Shown here: positions 57,398 to 64,000 of the stretch, in pieces
How the letters are laid out: each line of letters starts with the position of its first letter
Position numbering within the stretch: the first letter of the stretch is position 1
Assembly: GCF_009901525.1 (NCBI RefSeq)
Contig: NZ_CP019288.1
Span: 620,001-684,000, forward strand
Source: Kordia antarctica
GTDB taxonomy: Bacteria; Bacteroidota; Bacteroidia; Flavobacteriales; Flavobacteriaceae
Reading direction: 5' to 3'
DNA: 64,000 bases
Notes under the pieces: model-generated
The model's database searches: none
The model's input: only the letters and a program-made list of their open reading frames with translations
Told to the model about the DNA's origin: nothing
Made by a program: the position numbers and the translations under genes

Positions 57398-58848
57398 TAC
57401 GATTTCCCCTTCAACGAAACCTCACTAAACTTTGCATTAATATTAATCTCACTTCCCGAAGTATTCACTTTCTGATATCCGCGAACAATAGTATTAAACT
57501 GTGTTTTATTTTCAGTGCCAATGACTGAATCTGGATACGAAATACTAGATTTTGAACCTATATAATACAATTTAAAAGCAGCATCAGGCAATTGAATGCG
57601 CGCATCTGTATTTTCGAGAATAATATCTAACGTTTTAAAATTATCACTAACGTTATGAATCAATAATTTGCCAAAAGTTCCACTAATAATTCCCTTCTCT
57701 CCTAGCGTTCCCAAACTTACTTTGGACGAATTTGACATTAAATTAATAGCATTCACAAATTGTAAATCTACTGTATTCACAAAATTTACTTTCAATGTGC
57801 CATTATTCCATCTAGTTACATGAATAGGCGCATACGACGATTCTATCGTCGTATTTGCACCATTAATCACATTTGCATACAAAGCTGCGTGAGACAGCTT
57901 TGCGTTTACATTTTCACTTGTTGCCGCCAACGTTACTTCTCCATGTCGAACATTGAGTTTTAACTTGGTTTTCTTTGGCATTTTTATCTTGATGGTTTTC
58001 TTTACTTTATAATGTTTATTTCCTGATGAGATAAAGAAAACATCACTTTCGTTTCCATTTCTATTAAGATTAATAACACGATTATTTTGCAAGTTTGATT
58101 CTTGAATTAATTCGAATCTGTTCAATAACTCTTCTTTTTGTTTTAGCAATTCTTGCTTATTGAATGCTCTTCCTTTAGCAACAACTTTTCCTTGAATTTC
58201 TACAAGCCCCTTTTGTTGCTTTTCATTTACACTTTTCCGCAATTTATCTCGCTCTTCTTGTAGCTTCTCAAACTCAACTTTCCACTTTTCCATACCTTCT
58301 TTAAACTTCTTCTCATCAAAGCCATCTTTCCATTGCTTCTGCCATTTTTTCATATACGCTTCTCCATCTTTTTGATACGCTTCATAATCAAACTTTACAC
58401 CTTCCATAGATTCCATCACTAAATTTGGCAACTCAGGAATCTCTGGGATTTCAGGCATTTCAAAAATTAATGGTCTTTGTAGTTGTTCAATAATAATTGG
58501 ATCTGATAATGTAAATTGTCTGCTTTCGCCAAAAAATGAGCTGCTTCCTTTAGAAGTTACCGTTACTTTTTCGCTGTTTCCTATTGCTTCAAAATTCCAC
58601 TTTTTAAAATACGCTTCTATCTCTTCTTCGGTTGCGTCTTCAATTTCAATAGTAGCAGTAATTTCGATTTTGTTTTTATTCCAAGTATCAAATTCAACAT
58701 CAGCATGCGACGTATTAATTTCTAACGTAACATCTTTATTTACGGTGAAAACTTCCTTTTTTGTTCGTTTTTTTGATTGCGAATATCCAAATGTAATGAT
58801 CAACAAAGCGATCAATACACATGATTTCATTTTTGATTTATGCATCAT
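57397..58848 (-). CDS. Secreted DUF4097-like putative adhesin
   Basis: A 483-aa protein with a signal peptide (about 1-24, ending FGYSQ). An early beta part has VTLEINTSHADVEFDTWNKN, followed by a Lys/Glu-rich helical stretch (about 155-215, KKWQKQWKDGFDEKKFKEG), and a C-terminal beta-repeat part (about 290-480) with LNVRHGEVTLAATSENVNA and similar strands. The repeated short beta-strand pattern fits the DUF4097 adhesin-like fold. It is the third gene of the sigma/anti-sigma operon and overlaps the anti-sigma gene by 11 nt. It may be a cell-surface sensor or effector of that system, as in similar Bacteroidota operons. Confidence 0.72.
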   Translation of the reverse strand: MMHKSKMKSCVLIALLIITFGYSQSKKRTKKEVFTVNKDVTLEINTSHADVEFDTWNKNKIEITATIEIEDATEEEIEAYFKKWNFEAIGNSEKVTVTSKGSSSFFGESRQFTLSDPIIIEQLQRPLIFEMPEIPEIPELPNLVMESMEGVKFDYEAYQKDGEAYMKKWQKQWKDGFDEKKFKEGMEKWKVEFEKLQEERDKLRKSVNEKQQKGLVEIQGKVVAKGRAFNKQELLKQKEELLNRFELIQESNLQNNRVINLNRNGNESDVFFISSGNKHYKVKKTIKIKMPKKTKLKLNVRHGEVTLAATSENVNAKLSHAALYANVINGANTTIESSYAPIHVTRWNNGTLKVNFVNTVDLQFVNAINLMSNSSKVSLGTLGEKGIISGTFGKLLIHNVSDNFKTLDIILENTDARIQLPDAAFKLYYIGSKSSISYPDSVIGTENKTQFNTIVRGYQKVNTSGSEININAKFSEVSLKGKS

Positions 58849-59422
58849 TTTCTGATTTTTTTAGTTCGTTCAATTTTTCCTTTAATTGGTATAGCAATTT
58901 CAGTCTAAACTGTAAGTTATCAATCATAGCATTAATAGTTTGCTCGTTTGGTCCTATTTCGTTCAACTCTTCTTGAAGCACTTTTTGTTCTTCATTCAAC
59001 AAAGAAAGTTTTTCCATGTAGCTACTAAATAATTGTTTCCCAACTTCGGAAACTTCTACTTGTGTCAATTCATAATTGATGTTTGCTACATAATAATCTT
59101 CAATCTTTTTTAAATCGGGAGAAATATCGCCTAAGCTTACCGAAGATTTTTTAGTGGTTTCAGTATCAGTTTTCACAACTTCTTCTCCTGAAATGTCAGG
59201 TTTTTGCTGCAATTGATGATAAGTCAAACCTCCTAAACTCACAATTAAAAGTACAGCCGCAGCAATTTTATAAAAAGAGAAAGAACGCTTTTTCGTTGGC
59301 TTTTCTTTTGGTGACATCGCTGTATCCAATCGATCTAAAAAACGTGCTTCATGTCCGTCAGGCAATTCATTTTGAATATGTAACGGTTCTGTTTTCAACA
59401 AATCTTTAATATCCTGTCCCAT
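58838..59422 (-). CDS. Probable anti-sigma factor, single-pass membrane protein
   Basis: A 194-aa protein. The cytoplasmic N terminus (about 1-46) has HEARFLDRLDTAM, one membrane segment (about 47-68) has FYKIAAAVLLIVSLGGLTY, and the rest is an alpha-helical, Glu/Lys-rich periplasmic part (about 85-194). It is placed directly after an ECF sigma factor with a 17-nt overlap. No classical anti-sigma motif, but order and topology support the role. Confidence 0.75.
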   Translation of the reverse strand: MGQDIKDLLKTEPLHIQNELPDGHEARFLDRLDTAMSPKEKPTKKRSFSFYKIAAAVLLIVSLGGLTYHQLQQKPDISGEEVVKTDTETTKKSSVSLGDISPDLKKIEDYYVANINYELTQVEVSEVGKQLFSSYMEKLSLLNEEQKVLQEELNEIGPNEQTINAMIDNLQFRLKLLYQLKEKLNELKKSENDA

Positions 59423-59957
59423 AGTTCCTTTTTTTTAATGCTTGCTGTAATTTCTTCTTTCCTCGTAATAACTGTGTTCGTGATGCCGTTGTTGAAATAT
59501 TTAATATTTCCGAAATCTCTTGATGATCGTAGCCTTCAAGTAAAAAAAGCATTACTACAATTCTATATTTCTCAGGCAAATTTTCAATCTCGTTTTTTAC
59601 TTCTTCCAACGTGGTTTCATCACTTGTTTCCCAACTATCTTCATCGGCAACAATTTCTAAGTGCGCTTCATCAATAGTTAGATAATAATTTTGTTTAGCA
59701 CGTAATTTGTCTAAACTCTTGTGAATGACAATCTTTTTTAACCATGCACCAAAACTGACTTCAGCCTTAAATTGATCAATTTTTTGAAATGCGTTAATAA
59801 ATGCTTCTTGCATTGCATCTTCGGCATCTTCTGTATGTTTCAAGAATCGATTGGCAACAATAAACATTCCTTCACAATACTGCCTGTACAAATGCAGTTG
59901 CGCTTTCCTGTCGTTATTCTTACACTTCTTGATGAGCTCGGTTTGAAACATACTCAA
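59406..59957 (-). CDS. ECF RNA polymerase sigma factor
   Basis: A 183-aa ECF sigma factor. Region 2 has RFLKHTEDAEDAMQEAFINAF and FGAWLKKIVIHKSLD. Region 4 has LPEKYRIVVMLFLLEGYDHQEI and ASRTQLLRGKKKL. It is the first gene of a three-gene operon with an anti-sigma candidate and the adhesin-like protein. This is the second such locus in the window (see 49214-49798), with the same 17-nt overlap between sigma and partner. Confidence 0.92.
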   Translation of the reverse strand: MSMFQTELIKKCKNNDRKAQLHLYRQYCEGMFIVANRFLKHTEDAEDAMQEAFINAFQKIDQFKAEVSFGAWLKKIVIHKSLDKLRAKQNYYLTIDEAHLEIVADEDSWETSDETTLEEVKNEIENLPEKYRIVVMLFLLEGYDHQEISEILNISTTASRTQLLRGKKKLQQALKKRNYGTGY

Positions 59958-60168
59958 GTTGACTGTTTTCTGGTTTTGGTTAATTGCTATACATCTCTAA
60001 AGACGTAACATATTTTAGAATGTTGCAATAATGTAAAAAAAACGTGCTAATTAATACGTTTTATAGTTTAAAACTTTATAATATGTTCGCTTTCGCGAGA
60101 ATTTACTCATGGAGAGACTTTCCTGGATTATTGGACTTCTTGGATTTTTAGACTTTCTTAGATACTTT

Positions 60169-60257
60169 GATTCGTCATTACGAACGATAGTGAAGTAATC
60201 TGTAAATCGAGAAACAGATTGCCACAAGTTTTTTCAAAACTTTCGCAATGACGAATC
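60169..60257. repeat. REP-like palindromic repeat
   Basis: The left arm GATTCGTCATTACGAA and right arm TTCGCAATGACGAATC are complementary with one mismatch, separated by about 57 nt. Part of it (60173-60198) is identical to the reverse complement of 50741-50766. Another part (60212-60236) matches 48721-48745 inverted. It could form a large hairpin in RNA or DNA. Confidence 0.8.
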
Positions 60258-60378
60258 ATAATCCGAAATTGCAAAGAGTCAGATAGCAAAATTTTTGTTT
60301 AAAAGTTGAAAGATTTATAAGTTTATCTAATGTGTAAATAATTCATATACTAACATACCAAAATACTAAAAGCACTTG

Positions 60379-60400
60379 CATTGAGCGAAGTCGAAATGAA
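60379..60400. repeat. Dispersed 22-bp repeat, CATTGAGC type
   Basis: CATTGAGCGAAGTCGAAATG plus AA, related to 48703-48724 and, inverted, 23399-23420. Confidence 0.65.
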
Positions 60401-60497
60401 GCGAGTCTATTTTTAAATCTTTCAATCTTTTAATTCTTCAATCAAAAACAAAAAAATATCGTAATTTCGTTTTTATAGCTTAAATTTCATCAAACTT

Positions 60498-61583
60498 TTG
60501 ACTTCTAAAAAAACACATACATCAGCCTTACATGAAAAAGATGGGATTTCCAAACCAGATTTTATCAGCAAAACTTCGGTGGATACTATCAAAAAGAACA
60601 GAAGAAAACAACCTTCGGTAGACGAATTGGTTACAGGAATTTTGAATCATGATAAAGTGGCTTTGAGCAGAGCAATTACGTTGGTAGAAAGTAAAAGTGT
60701 GACACATCTAGCGAAAGCTACCGAAATTATAGAGAAATGTTTGCCACATGCTAATACGTCAATTCGCATAGGAATTACAGGCGTTCCAGGTGTTGGGAAA
60801 AGTACATTTATTGAAGCTTTTGGAAAACATTTGACAGGTTTGGGCAAAAAAGTTGCCGTGTTAGCTGTTGATCCAAGTAGTTCAATTTCTAGCGGAAGTA
60901 TTTTAGGCGATAAAACTCGAATGGAAGATTTAGTAAAGGATGAAAATGCTTTTATTCGTCCGTCAGCTTCTGGTGATTCACTTGGTGGCGTTGCTCGAAA
61001 AACTCGTGAAACGATTATTTTATGTGAAGCGTGTGGTTTTGATACAATTGTGATTGAAACTGTTGGCGTTGGGCAAAGTGAAACTGCCGTTCATAGTATG
61101 GTAGATTTCTTTTTATTGTTAAAATTGGCTGGCGCCGGAGATGAATTGCAAGGAATCAAACGTGGAATTATCGAAATGGCTGACGCTATTGTGATTAATA
61201 AAGCCGATGGCGATAACATAAAACGTGCGCAAATAGCGCGAACTGAATTTAAGCGCGCATTACACTTATATCCGCAGAAAGCTTCTGAATGGCTTCCTAA
61301 AGTAGTTACGGCTTCCGCCTTGAAATATGAAGGAATTGACGATGTTTGGCAACTAATTTCGGAATTCTGTGAAACGACGAAAGCAAATCATTACTTTGAA
61401 AATCATAGAAAACAACAAAATCGTTTTTGGCTGTTACAAACCATTGAAGAACGCCTGAAACATAACTTTTATAACAACGAACACGTAAAAAGTGTGTTAG
61501 ACGAATATTTGAATGCTACCGAAAACAGCACAATTTCTCCGTTTCATGCTGCACAACAGTTATTGGATTTGTTGAAATTTTAA
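60498..61583 (+). CDS. meaB: MeaB/ArgK GTPase, methylmalonyl-CoA mutase chaperone
   Basis: A 361-aa P-loop GTPase with a TTG start at 60498. Walker A is GITGVPGVGKSTFIEAFG, then AVDPSSSISSGSILGDKTRM, ETVGVGQSE and VINKADGD, all matching MeaB/ArgK. The family loads adenosylcobalamin into methylmalonyl-CoA mutase and protects that enzyme. No mutase gene is in the window. The cobalamin adenosyltransferase at 44183-44758 would deliver the cofactor. The N-terminal about 40 residues are a Lys/Ser-rich extension, as in other Flavobacteriia (inference). Confidence 0.94.
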   Translation: MTSKKTHTSALHEKDGISKPDFISKTSVDTIKKNRRKQPSVDELVTGILNHDKVALSRAITLVESKSVTHLAKATEIIEKCLPHANTSIRIGITGVPGVGKSTFIEAFGKHLTGLGKKVAVLAVDPSSSISSGSILGDKTRMEDLVKDENAFIRPSASGDSLGGVARKTRETIILCEACGFDTIVIETVGVGQSETAVHSMVDFFLLLKLAGAGDELQGIKRGIIEMADAIVINKADGDNIKRAQIARTEFKRALHLYPQKASEWLPKVVTASALKYEGIDDVWQLISEFCETTKANHYFENHRKQQNRFWLLQTIEERLKHNFYNNEHVKSVLDEYLNATENSTISPFHAAQQLLDLLKF

Positions 61584-61598
61584 AACATATTCAAGCAT

Positions 61599-61623
61599 AA
61601 AAAAAGCGAACCGAAGCTCGCTT
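61599..61623 (-). terminator. Rho-independent terminator of the RiPP precursor gene
   Basis: On the minus strand AAGCGA and TCGCTT form a stem around the loop GCTTCGGT, followed by TTTTTT. On the plus strand the sequence after the hairpin is not T-rich, so it serves the minus-strand peptide gene ending at 61645. Confidence 0.75.
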
Positions 61624-61644
61624 AATTCATGTATTTTCTGTTTT

Positions 61645-61815
61645 TTACAATTCGCAATCCCAAACGGTATGACATTCGGTGTCTGTACAATTTCTTTCTG
61701 TTTCACAAGCACACCAAGAGTTATTTGTCCAGTTTCCTCCATTGAGTTGATTCACGTGTAAACTAGAAATTAAATCTTTGTTAAGTTTTAATGATGTCAG
61801 ATTACTTTTTTTCAT
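61645..61815 (-). CDS. Double-glycine leader RiPP precursor peptide, orphan
   Basis: A 56-aa peptide. The leader MKKSNLTSLKLNKDLISSLH, with NQLNGG ending at residues 26-27, has the LKLNKxxIxxL...GG layout of Bacteroidota lanthipeptide and radical-SAM RiPP precursors. The 29-residue core starts NWTNNSWCACETERNC and has Cys at 35, 37, 43, 48 and 54, plus Thr/Ser at 30, 33, 39, 44, 46 and 50, so thioether or disulfide crosslinking is plausible. A terminator follows 22 nt downstream. Leader-peptidase, dehydratase, cyclase or radical-SAM genes are absent from the window, so modification enzymes would have to come from elsewhere in the genome. Confidence 0.8.
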   Translation of the reverse strand: MKKSNLTSLKLNKDLISSLHVNQLNGGNWTNNSWCACETERNCTDTECHTVWDCEL

Positions 61816-61931
61816 AATATAAATTTTATTTGGTTAAGTCATAAATTTAGTGAAATGAACATCATTAACATACAATTTATCAATTCATTAACAATGTTTT
61901 CAAAACTGCACTAAAGTAAAATCTATAAAAT

Positions 61932-62528
61932 TTAAGCATATTTCCGAATCAAAAACTGTTGTAATTTAAAGATAATTCCGCCATAAATTCCACCAAAAAT
62001 CATTCCTGTGAGTACATCTCCAGGAAAATGTACGCCAATGTAAATTCGGCTATAACCAACACATGCAGCCCAAAATAAAAGTATGAATACGATGTATTTG
62101 AAGTGTTTACGTAAAACCAAGCCAATAAATGTAGCTAAAGCCATTGCGTTGGAAGCATGACCTGAAAAATATCCAAATTGTCCGCCACAATAAGGTTCTA
62201 ATTTACCATTTATTAAAGTCGTTTTCACCAATCGCATGTGATCTATTAAATCAGCTGTGTGACAAGGTCTTAGACGTAAAAAGAGTGTTTTTTTGAATAG
62301 ATTTGCGGTTTGATCGGTAATTGTAATTAATAATGCTACCAATACAAGTGTAAAGAATATTTCTTTCTTATTGTGTGTTTTTAAGATGAGAATCAACAAA
62401 AAAGCATACAACGGAATTGCGTAGTATTTATCCGTGATAAACATCCAAAAACCGTCCCAAGTTGGCGTTCCGAGTCCATTTAAGAATAAAAATAATTCTT
62501 TGTCGTAATTTATGAGTTGATCGATCAT
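61932..62528 (-). CDS. PAP2 family phosphatase
   Basis: A 198-aa membrane protein with five or six hydrophobic segments. The three PAP2 motifs are KKTLFLRLRPC near residue 70, FSGHASNAMALATF near 120 and SRIYIGVHFPGDVL near 165, with the catalytic His residues intact. It removes phosphate from lipid pyrophosphates or phosphates, for example undecaprenyl pyrophosphate, at the periplasmic face. Which substrate cannot be told. It is 21 nt downstream of the lipoprotein gene at 62550. Confidence 0.92.
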   Translation of the reverse strand: MIDQLINYDKELFLFLNGLGTPTWDGFWMFITDKYYAIPLYAFLLILILKTHNKKEIFFTLVLVALLITITDQTANLFKKTLFLRLRPCHTADLIDHMRLVKTTLINGKLEPYCGGQFGYFSGHASNAMALATFIGLVLRKHFKYIVFILLFWAACVGYSRIYIGVHFPGDVLTGMIFGGIYGGIIFKLQQFLIRKYA

Positions 62529-62549
62529 ATTTATTATATACCCAACTAT

Positions 62550-63386
62550 TTACCTATTGAATCTAAAAGTAGAATCAACAGCAATATTCTTTTTATTGAT
62601 TAAATCGTTTCGTATTTTTCCTTCAAGCGAAAGCTCATTGACTCTTGTACTACTACTTGTTGTATAAAAAGAAATTTGATCTCCGTTTGAAGAAATTATC
62701 ATTTTTTGTTCAATTCTCTCAAGAGTTTTAAAGTCGTATACGAACGCGTGTGTCAAAATGTAACCACTAATAAATTCTTTATTTGTAGCATCTAAAACAG
62801 GCGGAATAAGTAAAGCATCATGTACCAAAACTACATAATCTATTTCTTTTAATTGATTCAAACCTTTGTGATAACGCGATTCAATACGAACTTTTTCGCT
62901 CATAGTAATGGAATCCATAACTGCAATGCTAGACTTTTTTTGCATAGCTTCTTCCCAAATTTCTTTGGCATTTCTTGTATCATAGGTTGATGTAGGAAAT
63001 TTCAAACTATAGCCAGTTCTAGCTCGTTGAGCATTTGTTTTACGGAATGAATCGTAATTAACATTATTTTTATTATGAATAAATAATGTGTTATTCTCTG
63101 TCATTTTCAACGAATCTATGTTTATTTCTTCTTCAATAGAAGTGTCAATAATAGCAGAAATAATTTCCATTTCATCTTTGGTATGAATTACTTTGACTGC
63201 AGTATTAAATTCTTGAAGCTTTTCAATAGAAGCGACTTTGGTAATCATTGAATCTAATTCACTATTTGTTTCTGTTGCTAATTGGTTGTAGACTTCTGAG
63301 CGAATTGTTACGAATGGTTCTGGTTCAGTATTACAAGAAGTAAAAATGCACAAGCATATGCATATTAGTAGTAAAGGTGTTCTCAT
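62550..63386 (-). CDS. Lipoprotein of unknown function
   Basis: A 278-aa protein with a lipobox (CLCIFTSC, Cys 18). The mature part is mixed alpha/beta, with VYNQLATETNSELDSMITKV and VDYVVLVHDALL-like stretches (IDYVVLVHDALLIPP near 190) and Ser/Thr-rich strands near the end. No recognised domain. A heavily charged central part carries IIDTSIEEEINIDSLK. It is followed by the PAP2 gene and preceded by a small acidic protein gene, perhaps one transcript. Confidence 0.75.
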   Translation of the reverse strand: MRTPLLLICICLCIFTSCNTEPEPFVTIRSEVYNQLATETNSELDSMITKVASIEKLQEFNTAVKVIHTKDEMEIISAIIDTSIEEEINIDSLKMTENNTLFIHNKNNVNYDSFRKTNAQRARTGYSLKFPTSTYDTRNAKEIWEEAMQKKSSIAVMDSITMSEKVRIESRYHKGLNQLKEIDYVVLVHDALLIPPVLDATNKEFISGYILTHAFVYDFKTLERIEQKMIISSNGDQISFYTTSSSTRVNELSLEGKIRNDLINKKNIAVDSTFRFNR

Positions 63387-63405
63387 TTGTTAATTGTTTT
63401 TAGGA

Positions 63406-63633
63406 TTAATCGTCATATCTAGATAATTCGCGATCATAAAAGTCGTTTGCGGCTTGGATTAAATTTTCGGATTCAGAAGCCAATTCTTTTTCGTCTTCTT
63501 TATCAAATTCTTCTAACCATTCTACTTCATCATTTTCTAGATTGATGATGAATCTTGGGAATTCGGTATGTATAATGAAAATTGCATCGGGATAATCTGT
63601 ATTATCGCCCAATAAAAATTTAGGAAACTCCAT
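63406..63633 (-). CDS. Small acidic protein of unknown function
   Basis: A 75-aa protein starting MEFPKFLLGDNTDYPDAIFI, then FPRFIINLENDEVEWLEEFD, and ending rich in Glu/Asp (NDFYDRELSRYDD). The frame overlaps the 3' end of the MATE gene by 14 nt, a sign of co-transcription. The pattern looks like a conserved small Flavobacteriia protein, but I do not recognise a named family. Confidence 0.75.
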   Translation of the reverse strand: MEFPKFLLGDNTDYPDAIFIIHTEFPRFIINLENDEVEWLEEFDKEDEKELASESENLIQAANDFYDRELSRYDD

Positions 63634-64000
63634 AAATAGCTTGATTTTTAATAAGTTTTTTTGATAAATAATTGAATCTAATATACAATAATATTGCAGA
63701 AACGGTCAATCCGACGAGTAAACCCACCCAGATTCCTGCACTTTTGTATTCGGTGTGTAATCCGAGATAGTACGAAGTTGGAAAACCAACCATCCAATAC
63801 GCGAAAAATGTGATGAATGCCGGAATTTTAACATCTTGTAAACCGCGTAAAATACCCAAACCAACCACTTGAATTCCGTCTGAAATTTGAAAGAATGCAG
63901 CAACTAAGAGTAATTTGCCCGCAACCATAATTACTTCCTGATTGTCTACAAAGTTTACAGTATCTGTTTCGTTGATATATAAGGTTGGAAACCAGTTATT
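63620..64000 (-). CDS. MATE family efflux transporter, C-terminal part (cut by the window edge)
   Basis: The frame is open to the end of the window, so the start is outside. The visible 126 residues begin NNWFPTLYINETDTVNFVDN, then LLLVAAFFQISDGIQVVGLG and ILRGLQDVKIPAFITFFAYWMVG, of which FQISDGIQV and LRGLQDVKIP match the second half of NorM-type MATE transporters. The last helices and a basic end (IRFNYLSKKLIKNQ) follow. It should export cationic compounds using a Na+ or H+ gradient. An internal ATG at 63928 is not the real start. Confidence 0.88.
   Translation of the reverse strand, partial: NNWFPTLYINETDTVNFVDNQEVIMVAGKLLLVAAFFQISDGIQVVGLGILRGLQDVKIPAFITFFAYWMVGFPTSYYLGLHTEYKSAGIWVGLLVGLTVSAILLYIRFNYLSKKLIKNQAIYGVS

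Follow-up and report, generated by a model that had tools for sequence, protein, structure and literature searches.

The Precursor Gene and Its Neighborhood

An ORF scan of positions 58000-64000 of the window, by which we mean the whole 64-kb stretch of Kordia antarctica DNA analyzed here, identified an ATG-initiated ORF of 56 amino acids on the minus strand. The following features were assigned to this ORF and its flanks:

61645..61815, minus strand: 56-aa precursor ORF (LanA-like), from sequence, syntenic orthologues and purifying selection
61735..61815, minus strand: leader, residues 1-27, with GG at its end (26-27); common to 122 further ORFs
61648..61734, minus strand: core, residues 28-56, with 5 Cys and 6 Ser/Thr; 5/5 Cys pairable with their own upstream Ser/Thr; pN/pS 0.22
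61648..61689, minus strand: last 14 residues, CTDTECHTVWDCEL, nearly frozen within the genus; pN/pS 0.013, pS 0.64, n = 7
61816..61841, minus strand: pre-start signature (-26 to -1), rank 35/123 in the leave-one-out score
61604..61623, minus strand: intrinsic-terminator-like hairpin and T tract; 1 found against a shuffle mean of 0.2

The length of the ORF, its leader (LKLNKDLISSL ... NQLNGG), the five cysteines (positions 35, 37, 43, 48 and 54) and the six Ser/Thr residues of the core are all as the preliminary description of this DNA gave them, and the minus-strand terminator that it assigned to the gene was recovered as the hairpin at 61623-61604. The Ser/Thr residues that follow the GG are T30, S33, T39, T44, T46 and T50. 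Within the leader, L9-x-L11-x-K13-x5-L19 fits the LxLxKx5L motif described for class I lanthipeptide precursors of Bacteroidota (PMC7268733). The peptide scores 18 bits against NF038153 (lant_leader_L1a), below the curated cut-off of 22, which is a curation line rather than a chemical criterion; a Pfam search with the peptide gave no match.

The gene had been placed between MeaB and PAP2 genes. Its plus-strand neighbor was confirmed as MeaB by a profile search, with scores above the curated cut-offs; the PAP2 assignment of the minus-strand neighbor is less firm, as PAP2-type phosphatase models matched it only below their cut-offs. In line with the claim that the window encodes no modification enzyme, no RiPP enzyme was seen in the ORF scan of positions 58000-64000, and the genome's sole LanB and sole LanC both lie outside the window.

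An intact orthologue is found between the MeaB and PAP2 genes in six of the seven congeners for which the locus was fetched. In the seventh (G007, locus L039), the stretch flanked by MeaB and PAP2 matches the window peptide in its C-terminal part only and contains a stop; this locus appears to be a decayed copy of the gene. The best matches of the peptide in the remaining three congeners are different peptides. In a comparison of the seven intact sequences (the K. antarctica gene and its six orthologues), pN/pS is 0.34 in the leader and 0.22 in the core and falls to 0.013 over the last 14 residues, with a pS of 0.64 there. The ORF is a real, conserved gene under codon-level purifying selection. 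All 11 Ser/Thr/Cys residues of the core (six Ser/Thr and five Cys) are invariant in the seven orthologues, with variation at several of the intervening positions. An insertion with TLYGC, found in three orthologues, provides an additional Cys and a Thr four residues upstream of it.

A Dispersed Precursor Family

The term "orphan", under which the gene was first described, understates the situation, as the window ORF belongs to a group of at least 123 siblings. A search with a profile built from 12 leaders revealed at least 119 leader matches in the K. antarctica genome at E values up to 10 (among the best 150 of 230 candidates). With an iterated leader profile, the fetched stretches yielded at least 123 intact ATG-started ORFs of 44-98 aa that carry the window leader and different Cys/Thr-rich cores (weakest E value 9.5e-4). 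With 62 ORFs on the minus and 61 on the plus strand, they form 70 groups separated by more than 10 kb. Just one of the 123 has LanB at a distance of less than 50 kb, and for 94 the distance exceeds 500 kb; mining of enzyme neighborhoods would therefore miss nearly all of these precursors. The NF038153 cut-off is passed at at least 17 other places in this genome (best 25 of 103 candidates scored). Terminator-like sites were found 3' of 66 of the 123 precursors; the opposite strand of these stretches has 37, and five shuffles gave 1-4. The core of one precursor (1942086-1942355, plus strand) contains several CGTNN repeats and a similar repeat occurs at 3516380-3516658, so cores may well grow by repeat expansion.

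The search for sibling leaders that had been proposed at the outset thus returned at least 122 siblings in the genome, and leader matches also occur in ten other Kordia genomes, each with at least 86 to at least 150 matches at E values up to 0.01; four of the ten reach at least 150. In K. antarctica itself, this search scored the best 150 of 201 candidates. The leader family is thinner outside the genus: matches at an E value of 0.001 were obtained for 10 of 299 genomes of the family, two of which are Kordia, with the best 25 or 27 candidates scored per genome. In a genome from another genus of the family (G320), one LanB occurs together with scattered matches to the Kordia leader, of which there are at least 22; this genome could represent a second, smaller precursor expansion.

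A few cores, including that of the window ORF, are frozen across species. Of 127 foreign cores sampled, 93 have no counterpart in the K. antarctica genome and 34 do, although 34/127 is not an unbiased share because the 80 stretches from which these cores derive were chosen among the best leader matches. Some other cores (seen when L237, L274, L220, L247 and others were compared with the K. antarctica cores) are also nearly constant across Kordia species, among them those with SCYWQDCPSNDPNFMSDCYCPY and CETIDYTRCNGEF.

The precursor genes also share a signature in front of the start codon. No G is present from -18 to -8 in 116 of 123 precursor genes, compared to 103 of 236 control genes of the same genome; A occupies -3 in 88%, T occupies -2 in 74%, C or T occupies -1 in 94%, and A-runs are found at -13 to -10. 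The window ORF conforms to this pattern (no G from -18 to -8, AAAA at approximately -13 to -10, and A-3 T-2 T-1). A leave-one-out start score separates precursors from the 236 controls with an AUC of 0.93 and only six controls score above the precursor median, where the control starts are first-ATG calls of ORFs of at least 200 aa and may include errors. In other species, 108 of 127 precursors lack G at -18 to -8. Bacteroidota make little use of Shine-Dalgarno pairing, and we read the signature as a common translational signal; inheritance of the 5' ends from a common ancestor may account for part of it. The flavobacterial promoter box TAnnTTTG is not enriched upstream of the precursors (14/123, versus 21 on the reverse strand), and the box combined with TTG was found three times, versus none on the reverse strand; no promoter is claimed.

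A Single LanB/LanC Set

A genome-wide search for RiPP enzymes, as the preliminary description had recommended, identified one LanB, one LanC, a C39 peptidase-transporter and eight SPASM radical-SAM matches. Homologous leaders and RiPP enzymes, whose absence had been named as grounds for abandoning the assignment, are thus both present. The LanC count refers to K. antarctica alone; LanB occurs exactly once in each of 11 genus genomes, including this one, and a C39 domain is encoded within 12 kb of it on the same contig in all 11. LanB, LanC and the C39 peptidase-transporter are grouped approximately 2.4 Mb from the window ORF, where the genes for LanC, LanB (751 aa) and a 301-aa TIGR03891 protein are adjacent and face those for the C39 peptidase-ABC transporter and an HlyD-type protein. 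A single leader-bearing ORF (L032:2110-2373) lies between the LanB/LanC genes and the transporter genes.

LanB is related by sequence to 9g04 and NisB, and the 301-aa protein resembles 9g04 and 5ehk in their C-terminal parts. We take LanB to be split into a 751-aa glutamylation part and a 301-aa elimination part. LanC is related to the solved LanC-like proteins 8byk and human LANCL1/2. WCYG and CHG as well as R-x-TPFG are present at the expected positions of the LanC/LanB alignments, which we take to be zinc binding and glutamylation sites, respectively. The K. antarctica LanB is 87-95% identical to the LanBs of nine named Kordia records.

Other candidate enzymes were considered and set aside. 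LanM (PF13575) is absent from the K. antarctica genome and YcaO from all 11 genus genomes, and both were rejected as the cognate enzyme. Elsewhere in the genus, LanM-type (PF13575) genes occur in four of the 11 Kordia genomes (G005, G002, G010 and G001), two of which carry two each. Beside the C39 transporter gene of the K. antarctica genome (L156:4267-6470, approximately 3.731-3.733 Mb), a 284-aa ORF resembles a reverse transcriptase (FVDD) and the opposite strand encodes a 428-aa AAA-type ATPase, both as judged by eye; these could possibly form a retron-like or defence pair.

Leader-matching ORFs flank 20 of 21 LanB loci (nine from Kordia and twelve from other genera), the exception being an 8-kb contig (L177). 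Leaders beside LanB prove little within Kordia because they are so common there; the MeaB-PAP2 stretches of the seven congeners, for example, also hold 13 leader ORFs. As leaders occur everywhere in Kordia, the informative loci are those outside the genus, where leader ORFs were found at 11 of 12. None was found in 16 other non-genus loci with weak matches (49.7 kb in total). Eight LanB loci of other genera also contained none, which counts against the link between leader and LanB, though these loci have flanks of only approximately 1.5 kb. At the level of genomes, LanB is present in eight of nine non-Kordia genomes with a curated leader match (the sole exception being G222) and in two of 25 leader-negative genomes (Fisher p 2e-5); the latter are the same-family genomes covered by the LanB search, with G028 left out, and include five (G032-G036) that are not itemized individually in the leader listing.

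Core Composition and Putative Ring Layout

Three of the 123 precursors have no GG, GA or AG where one is expected and were excluded from the core statistics, which leaves 120 cores, or 107 when redundancy is removed. Cys accounts for 12.1% of core residues and Thr for 11.2%, as compared with 0.7% and 5.7%, respectively, in the long reading frames of the window, and the first 28 residues of the precursors contain only four Cys in 3444 residues. Each Cys was then assigned its own Ser/Thr 2-8 residues upstream, and the result was compared with shuffles in which the Cys positions were fixed. All Cys could be paired in 84 of the 107 non-redundant cores (31.4±3.9 in shuffles), corresponding to 451 of 479 Cys (355.1±7.9 in shuffles, z +12.2). 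Run downstream, the test gave z +2.0, and for 13 other sets of residues z ranged from -3.8 to +2.1 over the two directions; an excess of this kind is found only for Ser/Thr upstream of Cys. It recurs in 61 non-redundant cores of other species that have no counterpart in K. antarctica (hereafter independent cores), 52 of which are fully paired (18.0±2.8 in shuffles, z +11.0; downstream z +0.1). The window core does not carry this argument alone: its five Cys can all be paired, but 22.8% of shuffles do equally well, which is not significant.

The spacing is also regular. Where successive Cys are 5-8 residues apart, Ser/Thr favors the second position after the first Cys (46-51%; shuffle level approximately 22% over all spacings), and a sole Ser/Thr between two Cys mostly stands 3-5 residues before the second. 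This layout would be what a LanB/LanC product with serial rings needs, and the family-wide pairing of Ser/Thr with Cys supports the lanthionine chemistry that had been suggested for the window peptide. The odd number of Cys that was offered as an argument for this chemistry does not carry weight: odd and even numbers are found in 60 cores each in K. antarctica (55 and 52 when non-redundant) and in 21 and 40 independent cores, respectively, and we have dropped the argument for this reason.

Alternative Readings

The precursors could instead be secreted double-glycine peptides that are unmodified or disulfide-bonded, with C39 exporting them and LanB/LanC acting only on the precursor of the adjacent gene. 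The leader alone would suffice for C39 cleavage and the cores are rich in Cys; the even Cys number of 40 of the 61 independent cores speaks, if anything, weakly for disulfides. However, disulfides have no need of a Ser/Thr before each Cys, yet this pairing is strongly enriched and directional, and the six Ser/Thr of the window core are as invariant as its five Cys across the seven orthologues. The equal split of odd and even Cys numbers in K. antarctica and the co-occurrence of leader and LanB across genera also argue against this explanation, which we consider improbable.

A second alternative is that the peptides are precursors for radical-SAM (SPASM) enzymes and related to the TIGR04149 peptides. 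The genome does encode eight SPASM matches, seven of them above cut-off, and TIGR04149 is the second family matched by the window peptide, although weakly (7.4 bits against a cut-off of 25). No precursor lies within 3 kb of any of the eight radical-SAM genes, whose distances to precursors are those of random places; radical-SAM chemistry also does not call for a Ser/Thr upstream of each Cys. Radical-SAM enzymes were rejected as the cognate enzymes for lack of a positional link to the precursors, and this reading appears very unlikely. Of the enzymes originally suggested to act in trans, LanB and LanC, each present once, therefore remain, and LanM (absent) and the radical-SAM proteins (not associated by position) do not.

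A chance ORF or a non-coding RNA gene, as might be suspected for a short ORF with only sub-threshold family matches, was rejected as next to impossible given the codon-level purifying selection, the syntenic orthologues, the 122 siblings and a sole Rfam match (20.9 bits, gathering score 55) that falls outside the ORF at 61568-61636 on the plus strand.

Proposed Biosynthesis and Relation to Known Systems

We propose that the product of the window ORF is a class I lanthipeptide precursor and that enzymes serving at least 123 dispersed genes modify it in trans, a reading to which we assign a probability of roughly 80%. The common leader, which ends in the double glycine first described for the window peptide, would dock on the genome's only, split LanB, and LanB would dehydrate Ser/Thr residues of the core. 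LanC would then link every Cys to a dehydro-residue that precedes it, forming small rings in series, with one residue separating a Cys from the following Ser/Thr and two to five separating that Ser/Thr from the next Cys. The C39 peptidase-ABC transporter and its HlyD partner are predicted to cleave after GG and export the product, and this same LanB/LanC/C39 set would serve all of the at least 123 scattered genes. Outside the cell, the products may function in antagonism or signalling, neither of which we favor. We also find it somewhat probable that each Kordia species makes a combinatorial library of approximately 100 or more, perhaps several hundred, lanthipeptides from a single LanB/LanC/C39 set, with a common ring layout and with the start-codon signature marking one translational regulon.

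Several known systems come close. The class I LanAs described for Bacteroidota share the leader motif, GG, C39 transporter, LanB and LanC with the peptides reported here (PMC7268733); they are described as clustered with their enzymes, whereas 122 of the 123 precursors here are more than 50 kb from LanB and the window peptide falls below the NF038153 cut-off. The prochlorosins and synechococsins (ProcA/ProcM, SyncA/SyncM) likewise derive from scattered precursors with one leader, GG, variable cores and one enzyme, and the strains with the most carry 83 and 79 precursors (PMC10783134). Prochlorosins depend on a class II LanM and Nif11-type leaders, in contrast to the LanB/LanC set and lack of LanM in K. 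antarctica. The system is best read as a class I (LanB/LanC) counterpart of the prochlorosins, in which one enzyme set would act in trans on more than 100 dispersed precursors; the prochlorosin-like mode of operation is suggested by one LanB, one LanC and at least 123 precursors in 70 groups.

The RiPP richness of Kordia is already in print. A 2010 account assigned KAOT1_15518, _15523 and _15533 of Kordia algicida OT-1 to a type 1 lantibiotic cluster, and where it treats this cluster it names one LanA rather than scattered precursors (PMC3091789). Kordia LanBs are 87-95% identical to the L160 LanB, which is presumably that of this cluster. The TrRiPP survey counts as many as 176 RiPP precursors for a single Bacteroidota genome and names Kordia as a RiPP-rich genus and an example for lanthipeptides and radical-SAM peptides; its precursor calls were made by machine learning with neighborhood enzymes, and the section concerned neither ties scattered precursors to one LanB/LanC set nor gives a ring layout (PMC11118758). 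The supplement of that survey may list many of the same Kordia peptides. An antiSMASH lanthipeptide cluster type has been reported for K. antarctica (PMC7477175), and Kordia is known to be rich in gene clusters (PMC10734526, PMC13101523, PMC9248904). Neither the treatment of the scattered precursors as one family with a single class I enzyme set nor their ring layout and start signature was found in open-licence PMC main texts. If the proposed library exists, it would be the first class I case known to us in which one enzyme set serves so many precursors.

The larger finding would thus be the system itself, a LanB/LanC analogue of prochlorosin biosynthesis by comparison with the known cases, of which the window gene is one member conserved across species. 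Its core is a good first target because the selection acting on it indicates a specific job for the product. If the proposal is correct, the substrate repertoire exceeds the 79-83 precursors reported for the LanM strains with the most, and a single LanB/LanC pair accepts over 100 different cores. Such enzymes could then serve to build thioether peptide libraries guided by the leader, and they would offer a class I model for studying ring choice by promiscuous cyclases. The system would also pose the question of why a marine flavobacterium maintains such a peptide library.
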